34,476 nucleotides of DNA. It comes from Anaerolineales bacterium. GTDB taxonomy: Bacteria > Chloroflexota > Anaerolineae > Anaerolineales > Villigracilaceae. The stretch lies in contig JAHDWC010000018.1 in the NCBI GenBank assembly GCA_023382575.1, positions 1 to 34,476 on the forward strand. Direction: 5' to 3'. Below the pieces are notes generated by a model. It ran no database searches, was not told the origin of the DNA, and was given only the letters and a program-made list of their open reading frames with translations. The translations under genes and the position numbers were made by a program. Below, piece by piece: positions 23,172-34,476 of the stretch. Position 1 is the first letter of the stretch. Every line of letters starts with the position of its first letter.

Positions 23172-24602
23172 ATGCATATCCCTCAAACTGGTTTATCGAA
23201 ACAGGAAATCCTTGCCGCGTTGCAAGCCTTCAAAGGCAAAGACATGGACTGGAAGGCTGGTAAAGTTTTTTGTTACACCTACGACCCCGGCGAAGACCCC
23301 GCCGAAGTGACACGTGAAGCCTACCTGCAATTTCTCAGCGAGAATGGGCTCGACCCAACCGTCTTCCCCTCCCTGTTCAAGCTCGAAACTGACGTGGTAC
23401 GCATGGTCATCAACCTCTTGCGCGGCGACGCAAACGCCGTCGGCAACCTCACTTCGGGCGGCACTGAGAGCATCATGCTGGCTGTCAAAACTGCGCGCGA
23501 CATGGCACGCTTCACCAAGCCGCACATCAAAGAACCTGAGATGATCGTGTCCAAGACCGCGCATGCCGCCTTCCACAAAGCCGCGCATTACCTCAGCGTC
23601 AAACCCGTCGTCGTGGATATTGACCCGCAGACCTTCCAAGTCCGCGCGGAGGATATGGAAAACGCCATCACCGAAAGCACCATTCTACTGGTGGCATCCG
23701 CGCCGAGTTATTCACAGGGCGTCATCGACCCCATCCGCGAGATCGGTGCAGTTGCGCAAAAACACAACCTGCTCTTCCACGTGGATGCCTGCGTGGGCGG
23801 CATTCACCTCTCGTTCATGCGCGACCTCGGCTACGACGTGCCCGACTTCGACTTCAGCGTGCCAGGCGTCACGTCCATCTCCACCGACCTGCACAAATAC
23901 GGCTACGCCGCCAAAGGCTGCTCTGCCATCATGTATCGCAGCAAAGAGATTCGGCGCTTTCAAATCTTCGCCTGCAGCGACACCACCGGCTACACCCTCA
24001 TCAATCCCACCATGCTTAGCAGCAAAAGCGGCGGTCCGTTCGCAGGGGCATGGGCGGTGCTCAACTTTCTGGGGCAAGAAGGTTACAAACGCAACATCAA
24101 AACCGTGCAAGATGCTACGCAAAAGATTATCGCTGGCATTCAAGCCGTTCCCGAATTGCGCATCCTCGGCAAGCCCGCCATGAGCCTGCTCTCTTTCGCT
24201 TCGGATTCGATCAACGTGTATCAATTGGCAGATGAAATGGCAAAGCGCGGCTGGTTCATTCAGGGACAGTTCTCCACGCCTCAGACTCCCCGAAACCTGC
24301 ATCTCTCCATCAGCTTTGGCAACGCCGGTAACGCAGACGTCCTACTTACCGACCTGCGCGAATGCGTGGAACTCGTCAAAGCCAAGCCGCCCATAGATTC
24401 AGACGCGATAAGGCAAATGGTGGGCTACGCGCTTCAAGGTCCAGACCCTGAGGCGGCATTTGGTCAACTCGCCGCTTCCGCCGGGCTGAGCGGTTCCGAC
24501 CTCCCCACCGAGATGGCGTTCATCAACGAAGTCCTCGATATTTTGCCCGATGAAGTATGTAATATGTTTCTGATAAACTATTTCAATGATTTATACGTTT
24601 GA
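23172..24602 (+). CDS. Sphingosine-1-phosphate-lyase-like PLP decarboxylase
   Basis: A 476-residue fold-type I PLP enzyme of the group II decarboxylase family, closest by eye to sphingosine-1-phosphate lyase. Matching blocks are NLTSGGTESIMLAVKTARD, KTAHAAFHKAAHY (ring-stacking His), VIDPI, HVDACVGG (Asp to the pyridine N) and STDLHKYGYAAKG (PLP Lys in the H-K pair). The eukaryotic N-terminal membrane anchor is missing, as in known bacterial versions. It would cleave a phosphorylated long-chain base into an aldehyde and phosphoethanolamine; another amine substrate, as in tyrosine/aspartate decarboxylases, cannot be excluded. GGAG precedes the ATG. Confidence 0.82.
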   Translation: MHIPQTGLSKQEILAALQAFKGKDMDWKAGKVFCYTYDPGEDPAEVTREAYLQFLSENGLDPTVFPSLFKLETDVVRMVINLLRGDANAVGNLTSGGTESIMLAVKTARDMARFTKPHIKEPEMIVSKTAHAAFHKAAHYLSVKPVVVDIDPQTFQVRAEDMENAITESTILLVASAPSYSQGVIDPIREIGAVAQKHNLLFHVDACVGGIHLSFMRDLGYDVPDFDFSVPGVTSISTDLHKYGYAAKGCSAIMYRSKEIRRFQIFACSDTTGYTLINPTMLSSKSGGPFAGAWAVLNFLGQEGYKRNIKTVQDATQKIIAGIQAVPELRILGKPAMSLLSFASDSINVYQLADEMAKRGWFIQGQFSTPQTPRNLHLSISFGNAGNADVLLTDLRECVELVKAKPPIDSDAIRQMVGYALQGPDPEAAFGQLAASAGLSGSDLPTEMAFINEVLDILPDEVCNMFLINYFNDLYV

Positions 24603-25093: not shown

Positions 25094-26065
25094 TTATTGA
25101 CCCATACGCAGTTTGTGTCGGGCAAAGGCTGTTTTGATGATGCGGTCAAAAAATCCCTTATACCCTTCAGAGTCATACAGGATCATGTAATCTGCGGGAC
25201 CATATTCCTTGGGCGGAAGCATGATGGCAGGATTGGGATTAATCTCCAAAATGAACAATTCACCTTTATCGTTCACACGAATGTCACAACGCCCATAGCC
25301 GATAATGCCCATGGTCTGGAACATGCGCTTGCCCTCATTTTGAAGCTTCGCTCTCAACACAGGTTCTGTGACTTCCTTGAAATCGAATGGAATGTTGTAA
25401 TCCCATTTGATGTCGGTGTGCCAGAATTCCTCGCCATCGGGGAAGATCAATTCGGCAGGCGGGTACACAAACGGCTGACTGAAATCATCGGGATTATCGA
25501 CCACCAACACGTTGTATTCCTTGCCGACGATAAACTCTTCCATGCGAGCTGCGCCAAACTCGCTGCAAATCCGCTTGACTTGCGTCAACACCTGCTCGAG
25601 CGTATCTGCCCGTGATTCTTTGAACATACCTGTACTGCCATAGCTTTTGGGATGTTTGACCATGATGGGGAAGCGAAGATTCCCGACAAGCTGCTCCGCT
25701 TCTTCCACACTGCTGACGCGATACCCCTTCGCAAACCCAATTCCATTTGCATCTGCAACTGCCTGCATCTCTTCACGAGTTGGGTCGAAGCAATTCGAGC
25801 CGGCGCCGGTAAATGGCACATTGAGCGTTTCGAGAGCCTGTACCACCTCAATGGCTTGATAGCCCAACTCATCATCTTCTTCGTCTTCAAATTCATATCC
25901 TTCGCAGATATTCATGAACACATCGAATTCTTTCGATTCTGCCAATGCCTTGATCTTCTCGAGCACAGGCGCGGTCAGGGTGACCATTTTCCAATCGAAG
26001 TCCTTCAGATATGGGGATGGATCAAAGTATGAAATTTCCTCATCAGACAATACGCAAATACGCAT
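25094..26065 (-). CDS. ATP-grasp ligase (D-Ala-D-Ala ligase-like)
   Basis: A 323-residue ATP-grasp protein. The N-terminal domain runs to about residue 100. The central part shows FPIMVKHPKSYGSTG, the ATP-binding strand and glycine loop, then RMEEFIVGKEYNVLVVD. The C-terminal metal site is FILEINPNPAIM. It resembles D-alanine-D-alanine ligases in layout but lacks their serine/tyrosine signature, so it probably joins a different carboxylate and amine. ATG 26065 with GGAG upstream is preferred to a GTG at 26104. It is not obviously part of the amino-sugar operon, which ends with its own terminator upstream. Confidence 0.8.
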   Translation of the reverse strand: MRICVLSDEEISYFDPSPYLKDFDWKMVTLTAPVLEKIKALAESKEFDVFMNICEGYEFEDEEDDELGYQAIEVVQALETLNVPFTGAGSNCFDPTREEMQAVADANGIGFAKGYRVSSVEEAEQLVGNLRFPIMVKHPKSYGSTGMFKESRADTLEQVLTQVKRICSEFGAARMEEFIVGKEYNVLVVDNPDDFSQPFVYPPAELIFPDGEEFWHTDIKWDYNIPFDFKEVTEPVLRAKLQNEGKRMFQTMGIIGYGRCDIRVNDKGELFILEINPNPAIMLPPKEYGPADYMILYDSEGYKGFFDRIIKTAFARHKLRMGQ

Positions 26066-26172
26066 GGGAGCTCCAGCCTTCACGGGATACACAATGACCG
26101 TCACAGGAAAATGGTGACCATCAACTTGTTAAGTGCATTATCATCCAAAACCCAACCTGCATAATAATTTTT

Positions 26173-26202
26173 AAGAAAAAAAGAGCAGATGACTCTGCTC
26201 TT
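26173..26202 (-). terminator. Terminator of the amino-sugar operon
   Basis: On the minus strand, AAGAGCAGA (26202-26194), loop GTCA and TCTGCTCTT (26189-26181) run into a T-run. The stem begins inside the TAA stop codon of the SIS gene. Confidence 0.9.
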
Positions 26203-27238
26203 ACTTCGTCTCCGTCACTTTTCGAATACTGCGCGGATTTTCTGTATCGTAGCCTTTTGCACGCGTCAGGTGATAAGCGAACAGTTGTGCGGGCAAAATG
26301 CTCGCAATCGGCGAAAGCCATTCGGGGATATCAGAGGGAATCGTCAGCGGAACTTGTGCCAATGAGAGCGCTTTTTTGTCATTTGAGATCACCACCAACT
26401 CGGCGGAAATATCTTCACGCAGACGATGAAGCATCTGAAGCATCGAATCAAAGACCTTACCTTTCGCCGCCACCGCAAAAACAGGATACCCGCTCTCAAC
26501 CATGGCGATCGGTCCGTGCGCAAAATCAGCCGAAGAATAGGGTTCGGCGATGATATAAGTCAACTCTTTCATCTTCAACGCCCACTCGAACGCTGTCGAA
26601 TAATTGAAGCCGCGCCCCAGCACCACAGTCTGATCGATATAACGATAACGTTGAACCGCCTCGGCAATAAAGTCGCTTTGCTGCAAGGTTTGTTTCATCC
26701 AAGCTGGGACCTTCGCCAACTCTGTCCATGCTTTTTTGTTTCCGCTCAACGCGGCGGAAAGCATCGCAACTGCGGTCAACTCGGCAGTATAGGTCTTCGT
26801 CGCAGCCACCGCCTTTTCAGGACCAGCTTGAACATCCAGAATAAAATCTGAAGCCTTAGCCAGAGGCGAAGCGGGTTCGTTCGTGATCGAAACGGTCAAA
26901 CATCCCTGCCGTTTGCCTTCCTCCAACACGCTGACAATGTCCGGCGATTTGCCCGATTGCGAAATTCCAATGACCAGTGCATTCTTCAAAACGGGCGGCT
27001 GTTTGTAATATGTGAACAATGAAGGCGTTGCCAAGGCCAGCGGAAGTCCGTTCATCGCGCCGAGCAAATAATTGGCGTAGCGTCCGGCATTGTCCGATGT
27101 GCCGCGTGCCGCGAGAAACACATAACGAATATCACGCTTTTGAATTTCAGCCGCAATGCGTTCCACATTCCTGCGTTGGGAAGATAACAATCGTTTGATG
27201 GACTGGGGTTGTTCGGAAATTTCAGAAAATAGTGACAT
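26201..27238 (-). CDS. SIS-domain amino-sugar deaminase/isomerase (GlmS isomerase-like)
   Basis: A 345-residue protein with two SIS domains matching the isomerase half of GlmS: AARGTSDNAG (about 43), ISQSGKSPD (about 91), ATKTYTAEL, LGRGFNYSTAFEWALKMKELTYIIAEPY and AHGPIAM. The glutaminase domain of GlmS is missing, so it cannot use glutamine and more likely deaminates glucosamine-6-phosphate to fructose-6-phosphate, as the archaeal GlmD and NagB-II/AgaS enzymes do. Its ATG is three bases after the NagZ stop, with GGAG inside the end of that gene. It is last in the operon. Confidence 0.85.
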   Translation of the reverse strand: MSLFSEISEQPQSIKRLLSSQRRNVERIAAEIQKRDIRYVFLAARGTSDNAGRYANYLLGAMNGLPLALATPSLFTYYKQPPVLKNALVIGISQSGKSPDIVSVLEEGKRQGCLTVSITNEPASPLAKASDFILDVQAGPEKAVAATKTYTAELTAVAMLSAALSGNKKAWTELAKVPAWMKQTLQQSDFIAEAVQRYRYIDQTVVLGRGFNYSTAFEWALKMKELTYIIAEPYSSADFAHGPIAMVESGYPVFAVAAKGKVFDSMLQMLHRLREDISAELVVISNDKKALSLAQVPLTIPSDIPEWLSPIASILPAQLFAYHLTRAKGYDTENPRSIRKVTETK

Positions 27239-27241
27239 GAT

Positions 27242-28831
27242 TTAACTCCGCGCCTCGACCAACCCGGGAATGGATACCGGCAAACGCCCCGTCATCTCCC
27301 CGAAGCCGAAGATGGCTTTCGCTACCGCCCGCATGGACGGCTCCAGAATGCTGTACGTGCAAACAAACGTGGAGGCTTGCGGGAAGGCAGCCAGATCATA
27401 AGGCAGGCGCAAGGCAATGATAATGACAGGTTTATCCATTTGCAATAGCTGGCGGACAAACTCTGCTTGTTTTTCTTCGGCATAGGCATTGATCGTCCCC
27501 ATCACAACCAAATCATACCCGCGGACTTTCTCCAACAATTCCATTGTTTCCTGTTCACTCGGCGCAAGGGAGATCTTGAATTCATCCGTCTGCGTGTGAT
27601 ATGTGCGAATGGACTCAGCAAGCTTTGGTTGAATGTACGAGGACGTGTCTGCTGGCGTGAGATCTTGCGGAACGGGCAGAATAACGGCAATGCGTTTGTC
27701 CGCTTCCAGTTTAATGGGCAGATATTTCTTCTCATCGCGAACCAAGGTGATGGATTTTTCTGCAATTTCGTTCGCCACTTGCATATGTTCTTCAGATTGA
27801 ATGACACTCATGTCAGGCGATGTGAAATTTTCGGCGAGCCACTTTTTCAGACGGGTAATCCGCTCAACAGAGACTTGCAAGTCAGCGTTGGAGAGTTTTC
27901 CATTTTGAGCACCCTGCAACAGGGCTTCGTATGCACGCGCTTGATCGAGTGGGTCGCTGGTCATCAACAAAATGTCCGCGCCAGCTTGGGCGGCACGCAA
28001 AACGTCTTCTCGCAGCAGCTCGCCCTGACGGATGGCGTGCATGTCCATCGCATCAGTGATGACAACGCCATCATAGCCGAGGTCCTGACGTAACAGTCCC
28101 TTGATGATGTTGGGTGAAAGCGTGGCAGGCGGCGCATCTTCCCCGTCGATAGAGGGGATGCCAAGATGAGCGGTCATCACCAGTTTGGCATCCGCTTGAA
28201 ATGCGGAGCGGAACGGAGGCAACTCCACAGCGTGGAGTCGCTCGCGCGAGTGTGGCACTGTCCCGAGTCCATGATGCGAGTCGCTGGCGGTATCTCCGTG
28301 ACCGGGAAAATGTTTGACTGTCGCGGCCACTCCTTGAGATTGAATCCCAGCGATCATCGCCGCCGACAATTCCCCCACCAAAATCGGATCTTCGCCAAAC
28401 GAACGTACTCCGACGACGGGGTTATTGGGGTTGATGTTGACATCTGCACTGGGCGCATAATCGACATTGATGCCAAGCGCAGCCATCTCACGCCCAAGGA
28501 CCTCGCCAGCCTTGCGGGCAAGTTCAGGCGAACAGGTTGCGCCAAGTGCCATATTGCCAGGCAGAGGGGTGCCATCGCCGAACGCCATAAGCTGGCCACC
28601 CTCTTGATCGGTGGCGATGAGCAAAAGTGGCAGACCCAACTCCTGCGCAAGGTTTTGAAGCGATTGCGTCAGAGATTTGATCTGCATGGGCGCATCCATA
28701 TTGAATGGACGAAATAAGGTCACGCCGCTGGGGTGATACGATTTGAATGCTTGAATGATTTCAGGAGAAAGATGTTCCTTGCCGCGAAATGCAAACAAAA
28801 GTTTTTGACCGATGAGATGTTCGAGGTTCAC
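27242..28831 (-). CDS. nagZ: GH3 beta-N-acetylhexosaminidase (NagZ-like)
   Basis: A 529-residue glycoside hydrolase family 3 enzyme. KHFPGHGDTASDSHHGL (173-189) contains the Asp-His dyad (D184, H186) that serves as acid/base only in the NagZ branch, and the nucleophile is D260 in VITDAMDM. It removes terminal beta-linked GlcNAc from chito-oligosaccharides or peptidoglycan fragments. A second domain of about 200 residues follows the barrel, as in the Bacillus enzyme. No signal peptide, so it acts on imported sugar. GTG 28831 follows AAAGG and comes one base after the permease stop codon. Confidence 0.9.
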   Translation of the reverse strand: MNLEHLIGQKLLFAFRGKEHLSPEIIQAFKSYHPSGVTLFRPFNMDAPMQIKSLTQSLQNLAQELGLPLLLIATDQEGGQLMAFGDGTPLPGNMALGATCSPELARKAGEVLGREMAALGINVDYAPSADVNINPNNPVVGVRSFGEDPILVGELSAAMIAGIQSQGVAATVKHFPGHGDTASDSHHGLGTVPHSRERLHAVELPPFRSAFQADAKLVMTAHLGIPSIDGEDAPPATLSPNIIKGLLRQDLGYDGVVITDAMDMHAIRQGELLREDVLRAAQAGADILLMTSDPLDQARAYEALLQGAQNGKLSNADLQVSVERITRLKKWLAENFTSPDMSVIQSEEHMQVANEIAEKSITLVRDEKKYLPIKLEADKRIAVILPVPQDLTPADTSSYIQPKLAESIRTYHTQTDEFKISLAPSEQETMELLEKVRGYDLVVMGTINAYAEEKQAEFVRQLLQMDKPVIIIALRLPYDLAAFPQASTFVCTYSILEPSMRAVAKAIFGFGEMTGRLPVSIPGLVEARS

Positions 28832-28832
28832 A

Positions 28833-29675
28833 TTAACCTTTCAAGCCGGAGACGACAACACTTTCAAGTATGAAGCGTTGAGCAAAGAAAAAGACAACGA
28901 TCAACGGAACCGTGGTCAACACGGCAGCCGTCATAATCGTAGGCCACGGCTGGACAGTCTGATTGATGTTGTACAGTGTGGACACATACACAGGCAAGGT
29001 GTAAAGGTCGATAGTTTGCAAATACATCAACGGCGTGAGCAGGCTGTTCCACAAACCAACAAAAAGGAAGGTGGCGACGGTTGCCATGGGCGCTTTGACC
29101 AGCGGCAGGATGATCTCCCACCAAATCTGAATGTGATTCGCCCCATCCACAAATGCGGATTCGTCCAGTTCCTTTGGAATTTGCGCCATCGCCTGACGCA
29201 GTAAAAAGATCATCGCTGCGCCGCCCGCGAAATAACCGGGAATGATGAGCGGATTGAACGTGCCGATCCAATCCAGTTTATTGAAGAAGACATATTGCGG
29301 AACGATAAGCGCCTGCGGGGGAATCATCATCGTGGAAAGCATCAGGAAGAAGACAACATTCCGCCCCGGCCACTCCAGTCGACTAAAGGCATACGAGACA
29401 GCCGCGATGGAAATCAACGTGCCGACCAATGCTAATGTGACGTAAAAAACCGAGTTGAAATACGAACGCAGAAAATCCTGATTTTGGAAAATGGCAAAAT
29501 ACGCCTCAAACGTCGGATTTTGAGGAACCCACACAATACCGGGAGAGTTGGTCTCTTCGATGGTCTTGAGCGAAGACGAGATCATCCAGAAGAGCGGGAA
29601 ACTCATCAAAACTGTCGCACCGGTTAGAAGCGCGTACAGGAGAATACTTTTGATAATGGGAAGATATTTTTTCAT
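28833..29675 (-). CDS. Sugar ABC transporter permease (MalG type)
   Basis: A 280-residue CUT1-family inner-membrane permease with six predicted helices and the EAA loop ELDESAFVDGANHIQIWWEIILPLVKAP that docks to the ATPase. ATG 29675 is preceded by AGGATGGG and sits ten bases past the stop of the partner permease; a longer start at 29699 would overlap it. Works with the MalF-type permease and the lipoprotein upstream. No ATPase gene is present in the window. Confidence 0.92.
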   Translation of the reverse strand: MKKYLPIIKSILLYALLTGATVLMSFPLFWMISSSLKTIEETNSPGIVWVPQNPTFEAYFAIFQNQDFLRSYFNSVFYVTLALVGTLISIAAVSYAFSRLEWPGRNVVFFLMLSTMMIPPQALIVPQYVFFNKLDWIGTFNPLIIPGYFAGGAAMIFLLRQAMAQIPKELDESAFVDGANHIQIWWEIILPLVKAPMATVATFLFVGLWNSLLTPLMYLQTIDLYTLPVYVSTLYNINQTVQPWPTIMTAAVLTTVPLIVVFFFAQRFILESVVVSGLKG

Positions 29676-29685
29676 CGCGCCCATC

Positions 29686-30840
29686 CTAATAGACATCATA
29701 AGTCACCCAACGATCTTGCAAGCGGAATTGGATGACCGTCACGATCATGATAATGACGAGGATCACCCATGAAATGGCAGAGCCATAGCCAATTTCAAAA
29801 TGACTGAAACTCTTCTGCCAGAGGTAATACACCATAGAGATCGTCGATGAGAGGATCGGCTGGTTATCGCGATACAAGACGAAGACCGGCTCAAAAATCT
29901 GCAAGGCACTGATCATGCCCACCACAAGATTATAAAAAATGTACGGGGTTAGAAGCGGAAAGGAAATCTTCCAGAAGCGCTGCCAGCCCGTAGCGCCATC
30001 CACCTCGGCGGCTTCGTGCAGTTCCTTGGGAATGTTGTTCAAGCCCGCAAGGAAGATCAACATCATTGCGCCACATCCCCACACCATCAACAAGACAACC
30101 GACATCTTCGTCCACAGCGGACTTTGTATCCAAAGCGGCACACGGTTCTCGGCAGGGAAGCCTGCCTCAAGAACTTTTAACAACAAGTTGTATTTGCCTG
30201 TGTTCAGTCCGAGGAAGAAGGCCGCAACAACTTCCTGCACATAGATCACTCCGCGGCTCAACAGACCGAATGGCGGAAAAGCCTCCGTCATGGCGCGAAT
30301 AATTTGATTGATAATCCCTGTCCCGGTATTCAGCATCAGACGCCAGCACAACAAGACGGCCGTATTGAAACCCAGGATGACCGGAAGATAGAACGCCATG
30401 CGAAAAATCCGCTCGCCTCGCATCTTCTGATTGAGCAGGACCGCCAAAAAGAGAGCGACTCCCAGCTGCAAGGGCAGACCGATCACGGTCAGATATAGCG
30501 TGTTGATGATCGAAGCGCGAAAACCTTCATCTTCAAATAAGATCGTTTTGTAATTATCCAACCCTAACCATTGAGCGGGGTCTGGAGATGTCACACGATA
30601 ATCAGTGAAACTCCAATATAAGGAGAACCCCAGTGGAACCAGAACGAAAATCAGAAAGCCGACGATCCACGGAGAGGCGAAAAAGTATCCGGCGAAGGTA
30701 ACCTCTTGGGCTTTGGGAGAAGCGCCGCGCATCCTTGCAATGAAGCGGGCAAGGAATCCCAATCCATAACTGGTGACGATGATGAATGCTATCGTCAACG
30801 CAGCCGTGATCAAAACATTCAAATATGGATTTTGGGGCAT
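29686..30840 (-). CDS. Sugar ABC transporter permease (MalF type)
   Basis: A 384-residue permease with an extra N-terminal helix before the usual six, and an EAA loop reading ELHEAAEVDGATGWQRFWKI. A loop of about 60 residues around residue 200-250 is longer than in most CUT1 MalF-like proteins. AGGAGA precedes the ATG. It lies 85 bp after the solute-binding protein gene. Confidence 0.9.
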   Translation of the reverse strand: MPQNPYLNVLITAALTIAFIIVTSYGLGFLARFIARMRGASPKAQEVTFAGYFFASPWIVGFLIFVLVPLGFSLYWSFTDYRVTSPDPAQWLGLDNYKTILFEDEGFRASIINTLYLTVIGLPLQLGVALFLAVLLNQKMRGERIFRMAFYLPVILGFNTAVLLCWRLMLNTGTGIINQIIRAMTEAFPPFGLLSRGVIYVQEVVAAFFLGLNTGKYNLLLKVLEAGFPAENRVPLWIQSPLWTKMSVVLLMVWGCGAMMLIFLAGLNNIPKELHEAAEVDGATGWQRFWKISFPLLTPYIFYNLVVGMISALQIFEPVFVLYRDNQPILSSTISMVYYLWQKSFSHFEIGYGSAISWVILVIIMIVTVIQFRLQDRWVTYDVY

Positions 30841-30878
30841 GGCGTCTCCTGTTCGTGGATATATTTCTCAAACATTAA

Positions 30879-30908
30879 AGTTGGGTGGAGATTGCTCCCC
30901 ACCCAACT
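30879..30908 (-). terminator. Attenuator-like hairpin between binding protein and permeases
   Basis: A 10-bp stem AGTTGGGTGG (30879-30888) with CCACCCAACT (30899-30908) lies just past the binding-protein stop codon. The downstream T-run on the minus strand (CTTTAATGTTT) is weak. Such hairpins often let the binding protein be made in excess over the permeases. Confidence 0.65.
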
Positions 30909-30925
30909 CTCGTACGAATTCTAGA

Positions 30926-32290
30926 TTATTGACCGAGCGCGGTGATGTATTCTTCTTGGATCTTCGCGTTCACTTCTTCGACGGTGAGTTCCTCGGTGAT
31001 GAGCTTGCCGAGCGCATCTTGCATGATGGTGGAGAGCTTGGCAGCTTCTATGATGCCGGCAAAGCCAACGCCGTATTCAGCGGCGAGTTCTGCTTCACGC
31101 TGGAGTTGCGGAGATTCGGTCACGTAGCCGTACTGCGCATCGTTGCGAGCAGGGATCAAGCCCATGGTCTCGTTCCACTTGTGGTTGCCTTCCTTGCTGA
31201 ATGCAAGTTTCAACCATTCGGCGGCGAGTTCTTTGTTCTCGCTGTATTCAGGGACGGCGAGCCAGTCATTGAATGCGAGCACGACCGGCTTGCTGTTGGG
31301 GAAGTTCTCAGGATCGCCATAGAACGGCTCGATGGAGACGTTGTCCCAAACCGGGCGGTCGAATGCGGGCGCAGCCCAACCGGAGTGAGCGAGACATACA
31401 GCGCCATTTTCCTTGCCCGTTGTGTCGTCCACGTCGATGACAGAACCGGTTCCAGTCGGGAGGGAACCAACAGCATCGATGGCTTCGCCATAGGTCGCCT
31501 GACGCATGTCAAGCAGGAACTGGGTCGCAGCCAGCGCTTCGGGGGAATCGAAGTTGGGGGTGCCATCGGCTTTGTAGAGTTCGCCACCGAGGGAGTAGAA
31601 CACGAGCAGCCACCATTGCCAGTCGGCCATGGAGCCAGCGTCAACGGGGACAAGCGCCTGCTGAGTCAAAGAATTGGTAGCAGGATCAATTTCCGTCGCG
31701 GTGGAGGCGAATTCTTTCCAGTCCGCAAAGTTCTGCGGAGTGCCAGTCGTCCAGCCGGAGGCTTCCATCAAATCGGTGCGGCAGAAAACGTAGCGCGGCG
31801 CGGTGAAGATGGGCAGACCACGCAGTGTGCCTTCGTACTTGGCATTCTCGAGCGCAGGTCCAAAATTGGAAATTTCATCCCAAGCGCCTTCGCCAAGGTA
31901 GGCTTCCATGTCAGCGAGGTTTTCGCCGTACAGGGTGTTCATTTCAGAGCCGAGGTTGATGATGTCGGGACCAGCGCCAGCGGCAAAGAAACCGCTGAAG
32001 GTCGTATCCCAACCAGACCAGGAACCTTCGGTGATTTCAACCGTCACACCAGGGTGAGCCGCTTCAAACGCGGGATTGATCTCTTCCTTCAACCAGGTAA
32101 TGGTTTCGGGCGTGTAGTCCAACAGGTAGATCTTCAGGGTGGCGCCTTCACCAGAAGCAGGCTCTTCAGCAACTTCTTCAGTGGTGGCGGGTTCATCTAC
32201 TGCCGGAACTTCTGCGGGAGTTCCACAGGCGGCCAGCACAAGGCTTGCCAGCACCAGCAGGGATAACAAAACGTACAGTTTCTTTTGCAT
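30926..32290 (-). CDS. Sugar-binding lipoprotein of the ABC transporter
   Basis: A 454-residue extracellular solute-binding protein family 1 member. Signal peptide and lipobox LAAC with C22, then a Glu/Ala/Thr-rich linker to about residue 47, then the binding domain beginning TLKIYLLDYTPETITWL. NPAFEAAHPGVTVEI and AGAGPDIINLGSE are typical of this family. GGAGAAG lies before the ATG. The ligand is probably a GlcNAc-containing oligosaccharide, inferred only from the neighbours. Confidence 0.92.
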   Translation of the reverse strand: MQKKLYVLLSLLVLASLVLAACGTPAEVPAVDEPATTEEVAEEPASGEGATLKIYLLDYTPETITWLKEEINPAFEAAHPGVTVEITEGSWSGWDTTFSGFFAAGAGPDIINLGSEMNTLYGENLADMEAYLGEGAWDEISNFGPALENAKYEGTLRGLPIFTAPRYVFCRTDLMEASGWTTGTPQNFADWKEFASTATEIDPATNSLTQQALVPVDAGSMADWQWWLLVFYSLGGELYKADGTPNFDSPEALAATQFLLDMRQATYGEAIDAVGSLPTGTGSVIDVDDTTGKENGAVCLAHSGWAAPAFDRPVWDNVSIEPFYGDPENFPNSKPVVLAFNDWLAVPEYSENKELAAEWLKLAFSKEGNHKWNETMGLIPARNDAQYGYVTESPQLQREAELAAEYGVGFAGIIEAAKLSTIMQDALGKLITEELTVEEVNAKIQEEYITALGQ

Positions 32291-32400
32291 CTTTCTTCTC
32301 CTTTTATATGTAGAACGATTTGTTCGAATTGCAGATCCAAAGTATGAAACGTCTTGGCTTCGTCTCTCCTTTCCGAGGATGATCTGATTTCAGGATGTTC
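32291..32400. other. Intergenic region between deacetylase and binding-protein genes
   Basis: These 110 bp hold the binding-protein ribosome site and a short inverted repeat GAAC-N5-GTTC (32313-32325). I see no convincing promoter or terminator, so the deacetylase and transporter genes are probably on one transcript. Confidence 0.4.
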
Positions 32401-33249
32401 CTAACTCATCCTGCCAACTCGCTCAAGCACATCAGTTGCAAACCGTTGCACGAACTCACGGATGAACTCTTTGGGGTCGATGGTCGCATCGTTCATCAAC
32501 GCGGTCATATCCATGCCATACGACAAACCTTGCGCATCGTCCACGCCATGTGACTCAAAATACGTGGCATTTGCGCGGCGGCGTCCCATCGAAGCGAGAT
32601 CGTAGCGTTTGCCGCCCACGATCTGCGAATCGAATACCCCCAACAACGCCAATTGCAGATTTTCGTGATGGGATAGATCCATTGTGACCTTATCCGAATC
32701 GACCAGCCAATCCAACGCGCGCCAAACTTCACAACCCACGCATCGCTCGGGACGTTCAGCCGGATCCAGTTTTCTGAGAGCTTCGATCACCCTGAGAGCG
32801 ACACCCACATGCGTATCGTGCTTGTCTGCCAGGTTATGGGTGTAAACCACCTTCGGCTTCGTCGCGCGTAGGATCGCCACGATGTCATCCACCGGCTCGA
32901 CCTTTGATGCATCCTTGATGATCTTGCTGGGATAATCCAACATCACCTGCGCCGCAAATTCACCGACAATGGCTGCCTTGCGCTGCTCCTTAAAGCGGAC
33001 AAGACGCATCTCATCATCGCTGTAATGCTCGTAAATGCTGTTACGCGGAGAGCCGCGTCCATCCGTCACGACCACACCTGTAAACCACTTGTCCTTCTGC
33101 TGAAAGCACTCAATGATCGGCTGCGCCGCCATGATCTCAATGTCATCCTGATGCGCGGCGAGACAAAGATGCGTCGTCCGCGCCAGGGCTGATTCCATTG
33201 GCTCGTTATCGGGAATATAAATTTCTGCTGTATTGAGATGAAACTTCAT
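32401..33249 (-). CDS. PIG-L/LmbE-type zinc deacetylase
   Basis: A 282-residue member of the family that removes acetyl groups from GlcNAc-type sugars. The first motif reads AAHQDDIEI (H33, D35, D36), with Gln where the family usually has Pro; the second reads THNLADKHDTHVGVA, supplying the last zinc His. The archaeal diacetylchitobiose deacetylase is of this family. AGGAAAA precedes the ATG, nine bases past the ROK-like gene's stop. Its place in the operon suggests deacetylation of GlcNAc, chitobiose or their phosphates. Confidence 0.85.
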   Translation of the reverse strand: MKFHLNTAEIYIPDNEPMESALARTTHLCLAAHQDDIEIMAAQPIIECFQQKDKWFTGVVVTDGRGSPRNSIYEHYSDDEMRLVRFKEQRKAAIVGEFAAQVMLDYPSKIIKDASKVEPVDDIVAILRATKPKVVYTHNLADKHDTHVGVALRVIEALRKLDPAERPERCVGCEVWRALDWLVDSDKVTMDLSHHENLQLALLGVFDSQIVGGKRYDLASMGRRRANATYFESHGVDDAQGLSYGMDMTALMNDATIDPKEFIREFVQRFATDVLERVGRMS

Positions 33250-33258
33250 TGTGTTTTC

Positions 33259-34476
33259 CTATTCAATCACCGGCAAACTCGCCGCCGCAACCGACTGCCC
33301 CACCCGGCGGATCTTTTCATCGGGCAGATGCAGTTCGATCTTCTTCAATAATTCAGGAAACTCGGCTGCAAAAACTTTCTTCGCCCCTTCGATCAACAAG
33401 TCACCGCCGCACCCGGAGGTGCAACGTCCCAGGATCAAAACATGCTTGATATCGTAGAACTCTGCATAATGAGCAATGCCATAACCAAGATAAATGCCCA
33501 TGCTGCGCCAAATGTTCAATGCACCTTCATCGCCCGCTTCCAGTTTCTTTTGCACGAACTTGAGCTTCTCGGCATCCGTCACATCGGCAGGGACTTCAAT
33601 TCCCGCCTTCGGTGCCAGCCGAAAAACACATTGCTGCGAGAAATACAACGCACCCACGCCTTTATCACCCGACCATTCATCGACAGGGGCATCGGGGTTG
33701 TAGTCAATGGGCGCGAATGCCAGCTCATTCAACCAGCCCATGATGTGACCTTCCATGTTCACATATCCAGCCGCTTCACTCGAACCGAGCGCAATACCCA
33801 GGATGCCATTATCTTCAATCGACATCGAACCTGCCAACGCAGTCACATCACCATCGTTGATTACTTCCAGCGGCACCTTCATCTCGTCGCGGATGCGCAG
33901 GAACATATTTTTGATATCGCCAAATTTTTCAGCGGGAATGCCTCGAAATAGCGAAGCCACCATCGGGCGATTGTCCACGTAAATGCCTGCCGAGCTGCCA
34001 CCAATCGCATCCACGCGCGGCATTTTGCTTGCGGCAGTCTTCAACGCAGTCATCACCTCGCGGTAGTGATAGTCAGGGTCGGTGTTCTTACGCGGCTCCC
34101 AGATCACTTCTTCGCTGTAGATGGCGTTCCCATCCACCACGGCGCTCACTTTGCGGTCTGAAGCGCCAAGGTCAAACCCGATACGGCAACCAGCTAAATT
34201 TCGTCCGAGCAACTTTCCAGTCTCGCATGAGGCTGGCACTTCATCCGCAGAACAAATCACGACCGAAAATTCCTTCTCGTAGACCTGCGTCCCCATGAAA
34301 TGAAAATCAAATTTCTGCACGCCATCCGCCGCATACACGTTGCGGATGTGTTCGCCGATCTGCTTCGGCGCGCCAATGTACACGGTATGTCCGCCACGCT
34401 GCCAAAGCAAAAATTTAACGATACGTTCGATGTATGAAAAATTGGATTCAAAATCGGAATGACCTTCGGGATAGAC
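33259..34476 (-). CDS. ROK-like sugar kinase, 5' end cut by window edge
   Basis: The frame stays open to the right edge, so 405 C-terminal residues are visible and the start lies outside. The ATPase core begins at about residue 125 of the visible part with RIGFDLGASDRKVSAVVDG (phosphate loop), then INDGDVTALAGS and GIALGSSEAAGYVN, matching the ROK/hexokinase fold. The ROK zinc motif (C-x-CG-x-x-GC-x-E) is absent; a different cluster, GRCTSGCGG, appears near the end. About 120 residues precede the ATPase core, including RGGHTVYIGAPKQIGEHI, with no recognisable helix-turn-helix. It probably phosphorylates an amino sugar, but this is inferred from the operon. Confidence 0.75.
   Translation of the reverse strand, partial: VYPEGHSDFESNFSYIERIVKFLLWQRGGHTVYIGAPKQIGEHIRNVYAADGVQKFDFHFMGTQVYEKEFSVVICSADEVPASCETGKLLGRNLAGCRIGFDLGASDRKVSAVVDGNAIYSEEVIWEPRKNTDPDYHYREVMTALKTAASKMPRVDAIGGSSAGIYVDNRPMVASLFRGIPAEKFGDIKNMFLRIRDEMKVPLEVINDGDVTALAGSMSIEDNGILGIALGSSEAAGYVNMEGHIMGWLNELAFAPIDYNPDAPVDEWSGDKGVGALYFSQQCVFRLAPKAGIEVPADVTDAEKLKFVQKKLEAGDEGALNIWRSMGIYLGYGIAHYAEFYDIKHVLILGRCTSGCGGDLLIEGAKKVFAAEFPELLKKIELHLPDEKIRRVGQSVAAASLPVIE

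Follow-up and report, generated by a model that had tools for sequence, protein, structure and literature searches.

Gene content of the locus

The window analyzed here is the whole stretch of 34,476 nucleotides that constitutes one entire contig (JAHDWC010000018.1, C18) in the draft genome of an Anaerolineales bacterium of the phylum Chloroflexota (GCA_023382575.1; 4.37 Mb, 98% complete). Seven collinear open reading frames (ORFs) on its minus strand quite probably make up an operon for the catabolism of N-acetylglucosamine (GlcNAc), in which a PIG-L family deacetylase takes the place of NagA and likely acts on GlcNAc-6-phosphate (GlcNAc-6-P), as judged from sequence and gene neighborhood. 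The order of transcription is a ROK-like protein, PIG-L, a sugar-binding lipoprotein, two permeases of an ATP-binding cassette (ABC) importer, a family GH3 glycoside hydrolase, and a SIS protein (Table 1). This gene set and order had been proposed in the initial annotation and are confirmed by the ORF reading of the window and by Pfam domains. Only 9 bases separate the ROK-like and PIG-L genes and 3 bases the GH3 and SIS genes, and the two permease genes overlap. None of the seven genes encodes an importer ATPase, and the match of the lipoprotein to the NgcE model is weak (27.5 bits, cut-off 399.65).

Table 1. Features of the putative GlcNAc operon, in order of transcription, with positions in the window.
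Feature	Position	Strand	Remarks
ROK-like protein, probable N-acetylhexosamine kinase	33259..34476	-	open at contig end
PIG-L deacetylase, proposed GlcNAc-6-P deacetylase in NagA's slot	32401..33249	-	
ABC sugar-binding lipoprotein (SBP)	30926..32290	-	SBP_bac_1, 79.7 bits
ABC permease 1	29686..30840	-	Pfam permease domain; best NCBIfam match UgpA, below cut-off
ABC permease 2	28833..29699	-	Pfam permease domain; best NCBIfam match UgpE, below cut-off
GH3 beta-N-acetylglucosaminidase, two domains	27242..28831	-	Pfam GH3 N-domain, 286 bits
SIS protein, GlmS-isomerase/NagB-II-like, probable glucosamine-6-phosphate deaminase	26201..27238	-	Pfam SIS, 120.7 bits
Terminator-like hairpin, 9 pairs and T run	26181..26202	-	directly behind SIS stop codon

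PIG-L and NagA exchange places between the same neighbors

The source genome contains no NagA above the TIGR00221 cut-off (225.65; best match, 23.9 bits) and no NagB (best match, 41.3 bits; none at E <= 1e-30), in agreement with the claim of the initial annotation that both are missing. That best NagB match, the one member of the family in the genome, lies on contig C200 and was rejected as a 6-phosphogluconolactonase by eye, lying beside ORFs for Gnd and glucose-6-phosphate dehydrogenase. The genome yields no GH18 match (GH19 and GH20 were not searched for) and no MurQ above the cut-off, the two matches to that model being the SIS protein and GlmS (AnmK was not searched for). These negatives bear on chitin breakdown by GH18, on peptidoglycan recycling through MurQ, and on the scavenging of cell walls that the initial annotation raised as a possibility.

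To place the operon in its taxonomic setting, we used a sample of 199 genomes of the class and counted PIG-L at E <= 1e-20 (31 genomes), the SIS protein at E <= 1e-60 (137 genomes), the ROK-like protein at E <= 1e-60 (38 genomes), and NagA at E <= 1e-30 (132 genomes, 126 of them over the curated cut-off). NagB was found at E <= 1e-30 in 49 of the 199 genomes; since none of these 49 matches exceeds the curated NagB cut-off, that cut-off is too strict for the class. PIG-L is present in 25 of the 38 genomes with a ROK-like protein. The latter occurs in 25 of the 31 PIG-L genomes versus 13 of the 168 others (Fisher p = 6e-17), and NagA is rarer in PIG-L genomes (11 of 31 versus 121 of 168; odds ratio 0.21, Fisher p = 1.5e-4), both tests ignoring kinship. 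No NagA is detected at E <= 1e-30 in 20 of the 31 PIG-L genomes, including that of the window.

We observed directly that PIG-L and NagA occupy the same place between the same neighbors. Thirteen genomes have the ROK-like gene without PIG-L, and in eight of them NagA is the next gene downstream, with gaps of up to 1.25 kb (loci L149-L155 and L157). SIS follows in six of these eight loci (L149-L152, L154, and L155; the SIS gene of L154 is cut by the contig end). Among the other five genomes, the ROK-like genes of G108 and G129 end at or near a contig end and that of G049 is cut by one. Two of these NagA proteins were scanned (L149 and L155) and, at 300 and 344 bits, exceed the cut-off of 226; the scanned SIS proteins that adjoin NagA (L149 and L152) have profile scores like that of the window. 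More broadly, at least 31 of the 137 SIS genomes have SIS no more than 7 kb from NagA, and 8 have it that close to PIG-L. The former count is based on 150 positions of NagA, drawn from 122 of the 132 genomes that have it (119 plus 31, the latter changing nothing). A tblastn comparison of 176 loci recovered PIG-L in 131, several of which are one place counted twice, NagA in 8, and both in none.

The same exchange is visible in the phylogeny of the ROK-like protein. Among 87 non-identical ROK-like proteins, the next gene is PIG-L in 68, NagA in 8, and neither in 11, and on a quick tree of these proteins the partner changes between PIG-L and NagA at least three times. The tree left out ORFs shorter than 380 residues, below 350 bits, or identical in their last 250 residues, and the window protein was labeled as PIG-L associated by hand; L059 and L060 were omitted from one comparison, other ORF frames having been picked there. 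The ROK-like and PIG-L genes lie on separate contigs in G015, G080, G124, G133, and G142. Read from sequence, the overall pattern is one of non-orthologous displacement within a single pathway.

Properties of the encoded proteins

The PIG-L protein exceeds the gathering score of Pfam PF02585 (59.2 bits versus 28.2), and its residues H33, D35, D36, and H147, which we take to be the metal site, show no variation among the 25 orthologues aligned. The family also carries a segment, GGKRYDLA...GRRRANAT (residues 207-229), in which K214, R215, R223, and R224 are invariant; it sits in a part modeled with low confidence, and our guess is that it may bind phosphate. In a profile search the nearest solved relatives are BC1534 (2ixd, E 2.4e-6) and BshB (6p2t, 1.6e-4), and no chain of chitobiose deacetylase (Dac) appears at E <= 10. 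A fold search matches BC1534, BshB, Dac, and MshB alike, with ranks 1 to 20 close together at 16-20% identity. The best NCBIfam match is BshB1, at 34.4 bits, which does not reach the TIGR04001 cut-off of 182.5. The protein is no closer to Dac than to BshB, which leaves the previously suggested link to archaeal chitobiose deacetylase unsupported. The source genome has seven PIG-L matches, and two further PIG-L genes stand side by side at C6:32680-33915.

The SIS protein scores nearly equally with the NCBIfam models of glmS (238 bits) and NagB-II (237 bits), below the cut-off of each; for the NagB-II model NF046059 (SO3506), the match covers residues 5-344 at 236.8 bits against a cut-off of 430. 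Pfam finds SIS domain matches only and no glutaminase domain, so the description of a GlmS-isomerase-like protein lacking that domain was borne out. Its assignment to the GlmD type was not, as the protein scores 73.8 bits with the GlmD model NF041128, whose cut-off is 580; the AgaS-family model gives 48.6 bits. The residues that align with the active site of the GlmS isomerase as we take it to be, namely K and E of ALKMKEL, H of AHGPIAM, and K of RKVTET at the C-terminus, are retained. The protein is not the cell's own GlmS, since two other genes of the genome encode full-length GlmS proteins that exceed the cut-off. It may function like NagB-II, though it falls outside that model's cut-off.

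No Pfam or NCBIfam model, PF00480 included, matches the ROK-like protein at E <= 0.001, and the protein is not among the six PF00480 matches of the genome; its assignment rests on the predicted fold and on a profile comparison of the family. The model of the G027 orthologue (pLDDT 80.8) superposes through residues 151-460 on eight entries of N-acetylmannosamine (ManNAc) or GlcNAc kinases, with Z scores of 21.3-23.2, root mean square deviations (rmsd) of 2.4-3.6, and 256-285 aligned residues. Two of them are 6jdb (Z 23.2, 276 residues, rmsd 2.7) and 7p9l (Z 22.1, 285 residues, rmsd 3.0). In the profile comparison, DLGAS and NDG align with DLGGT and NDA of ROK (E 5.4e-9), and the phosphate loop and catalytic Asp are retained. 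Full-length relatives carry about 150 additional, conserved N-terminal residues ahead of the zinc-less ROK module (for example, residues 1-150 of the protein at L044:8129-9508). Most rows of the fold comparison span residues 149-460, and some eukaryotic hexokinase rows start at 11-13. The modeled fold suggests that the protein is a probable kinase of an N-acetylhexosamine.

The closest solved relatives of the GH3 protein are the N-acetylglucosaminidases 6k5j (334 bits) and 4zm6 (306 bits), which align over both domains and have the KHFPGHGDT..DSH segment in common with it. The protein does not exceed the cut-off of 207 of the NagZ model NF003740 (165.7 bits), and no signal or leader peptide is visible by eye.

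Distribution beyond the window

Genome contigs scanned with an alignment of PIG-L yielded at least 568 confirmed relatives among at least 592 pattern matches, and the loci were compared for the best 80 of the PIG-L relatives listed. These 80 loci are mainly from Anaerolineae; 22 are titled as other groups, with labels of metagenome-assembled genomes such as Hydrogenedentota, Armatimonadota, Planctomycetota, Bryobacteraceae, Holophagales, and others. The whole order of ROK-like, PIG-L, SBP, two permeases, GH3, and SIS genes recurs in L044, L069, L070, L074, L075, L081, L109, and L113.

Variants around the pair were also seen. A gene of the URO-D family (PF01208, 149 bits in L073) lies near it in L063, L065, L066, L071, L073, L115, L120, L052, and L054, and in the first five of these it follows the second permease, the place of GH3 in the window. 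At L129:10029-13244, the genes after PIG-L encode a member of the nucleotidyltransferase family, a kinase of the APH family, and then SIS, which may represent another amino-sugar route built on the same core.

Boundaries of the operon

The copy of the ROK-like protein in the window starts at profile position 61, and its first ~60 residues lie beyond the contig end. The start of contig C79 encodes the first 45 residues of a protein that belongs to the same ROK-like family and shares 76% identity with the copy in G027. Upstream of this start lies a ROK-family regulator that is 83% identical to its G027 counterpart; the latter directly precedes the ROK-like gene in that genome and matches NagC best (187 bits, below the cut-off of 650). 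On the basis of these identities we take C79 to be the probable missing upstream neighbor of the window contig, across a gap in the assembly.

At the other end, the hairpin behind SIS is the probable end of the operon. This call rests on its position, since the scanned region holds 13 terminator-like sites and shuffled versions of it hold 10.1 on average. Because the hairpin comes right after the SIS stop codon, the ATP-grasp gene resembling D-Ala-D-Ala ligase directly behind SIS (positions 25094-26104, minus strand) probably forms a unit of its own. Its pairing with SIS is retained in G061 and G179 (L167 and L168), two genomes in which PIG-L, NagA, and the ROK-like protein gave no match under the thresholds applied. 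Farther along, positions 23172-24602 of the plus strand hold an ORF that by eye resembles a pyridoxal-dependent decarboxylase.

Proposed pathway and alternative explanations

NagA acts on GlcNAc-6-P. Given this substrate, the most plausible reading is that the ROK-like partner, shared by NagA and PIG-L, produces GlcNAc-6-P and that PIG-L acts on this compound. In the pathway that we infer, the ABC importer would bring in GlcNAc or short GlcNAc-containing oligosaccharides, and the probably cytosolic GH3 enzyme would cut the oligomers. The ROK-like protein would serve as the kinase that makes GlcNAc-6-P, from which PIG-L, in place of NagA, would remove the acetyl group; GlcNAc-6-P rather than free GlcNAc would thus be its substrate. 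The SIS protein, in place of NagB, would then convert glucosamine-6-phosphate to fructose-6-phosphate and ammonia, with the NagC-like regulator of the ROK family presumably sitting upstream of the operon. The purpose of such an operon, GlcNAc use, would be ordinary and its deacetylase unusual, the new element being the apparent swap with NagA. With slightly more reserve, we think it probable that this unnamed PIG-L subfamily is a non-orthologous GlcNAc-6-P deacetylase that has taken over from NagA in anaerolinean GlcNAc operons and that, together with a new type of ROK-like kinase, it has spread to Hydrogenedentota, Armatimonadota, Planctomycetota, and Acidobacteriota.

Several observations weigh against this interpretation. 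The absence of SIS beside the pair in all 22 loci titled as other groups (stretches of 3 to 19 kb, several of them short) is the main unexplained point; either the deaminase is unlinked there or the pair serves another sugar. GH3 in those loci amounts to one 25% match, on the opposite strand (L134). In G064 (L156) the ROK-like gene is followed by SIS with no deacetylase between them, and in G193 (L158) by an ORF resembling an alpha/beta-hydrolase. Deep forks of the ROK-like tree are weakly supported. The ROK repressor 5f7r (Lmo0178; Z 22.6) and glucokinases (3vgk, Z 21.8) tie with the amino-sugar kinases in the fold comparison, the zinc cysteines and the His of ExGH are lost from the ROK-like protein and replaced by EWSGDKGxGA and NELAF, and some loci also contain a separate ROK kinase. 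Finally, 11 of the 31 PIG-L genomes carry NagA elsewhere, four of them as weak matches (E 4e-45 to 6e-52; G002, G015, G080, and G187), and PIG-L may therefore handle another N-acetyl sugar in those genomes.

Such a sugar could be N-acetylgalactosamine-6-phosphate, ManNAc-6-phosphate, or a uronate-linked sugar, with the operon serving mixed glycans. ManNAc kinases are indeed among the closest solved kinases, and a GH88-family gene stands beside the pair in one locus (L117). We nevertheless consider this improbable, given the low AgaS-family score of the SIS protein relative to NagB-II, a regulator that is most like NagC, and the 20 PIG-L genomes in which NagA is not detected. An archaeal order of reactions is unlikely as well, if a shade less so. 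PIG-L would then act on free GlcNAc or at the non-reducing end of disaccharides after their import, with the ROK-like protein as a glucosamine kinase and SIS as the last enzyme, as in Thermococcus. The same kinds of activity would be involved as in that route, and Pyrococcus chitobiose deacetylases are among the nearest solved structures in the fold search. However, NagA, an enzyme of GlcNAc-6-P, occupies the place of PIG-L between the same ROK-like and SIS partners, which argues that phosphorylation comes first, and neither Dac nor GlmD shows sequence affinity to the proteins of the window. It is very improbable that PIG-L is a mere neighbor making a thiol cofactor or other conjugate akin to bacillithiol or mycothiol: BshB1 is its best NCBIfam match, yet at a score far below the cut-off (other bacillithiol genes were not searched for), and its place beside the ROK-like, importer, GH3, and SIS genes is conserved and exchanged with NagA.

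We thus favor PIG-L as a replacement of NagA acting after phosphorylation. The hybrid route of the initial annotation stands in part: it described an amino-sugar operon in which PIG-L and a stand-alone SIS protein replace NagA and NagB, and neither of the latter is found in the genome. Its archaeal component is not supported, given the comparisons with GlmD and Dac and the proximity of SIS relatives to NagA in other genomes. An archaeal origin of the PIG-L/SIS pair was rejected on the GlmD score and the Dac profile and fold comparisons, and the archaeal analogy is at most convergent.

If PIG-L does stand in for NagA, it would provide a GlcNAc route for relatives that lack NagA (for context, see the relevant part of PMC9942424). 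It could explain GlcNAc use without NagA in some uncultured bacteria and would change the prediction of GlcNAc use from genomes, where rules that require NagA miss 20 of the 31 PIG-L genomes. A comparative genomics study from 2017 describes non-orthologous pairs for glucosamine-6-phosphate deaminase, GlcNAc kinase, and galactosamine isomerase, and the passage concerned names none for NagA (PMC5583593). No account of a PIG-L/LmbE protein as a GlcNAc-6-P deacetylase came to light among the open-access papers searched, which does not in itself show that the role is unpublished.

Comparison with known systems

The bacterial NagK-NagA-NagB pathway, in the NagB-II variant of Shewanella, resembles the proposed system in its reactions, in a deaminase to which the SIS protein is similar (SO3506 model), in a NagC-like regulator, and in the neighbors that NagA has in related genomes. 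Here, in contrast, NagA is missing and PIG-L is in its slot, SIS falls below the NagB-II equivalog cut-off, and the ROK-like protein lacks a Pfam ROK match. The chitobiose route of Thermococcus consists of Dac, GlmA, and GlmD and likewise pairs a PIG-L deacetylase with a SIS deaminase rather than NagA with NagB. The operon of the window differs from it in lacking sequence affinity to GlmD and Dac, in having a bacterial GH3 enzyme instead of GlmA and no GH18 chitinase found, and in a probable phosphorylation before deacetylation.

LmbE-type deacetylases such as BC1534 and BshB are the nearest solved chains to PIG-L by profile, and their metal-site motifs align with it. They differ in sequence (~17-20% identity by fold) and in gene context, and the GGKRYDLA...GRRRANAT segment belongs to the family of the window. 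In Bacteroidota, NagB is fused to PIG-L/LmbE, a pairing of PIG-L with glucosamine-6-phosphate deaminase that would fit the same activity. There the classical NagB is the fused partner, whereas here PIG-L is a separate protein that has a SIS deaminase as its partner and exchanges places with NagA.

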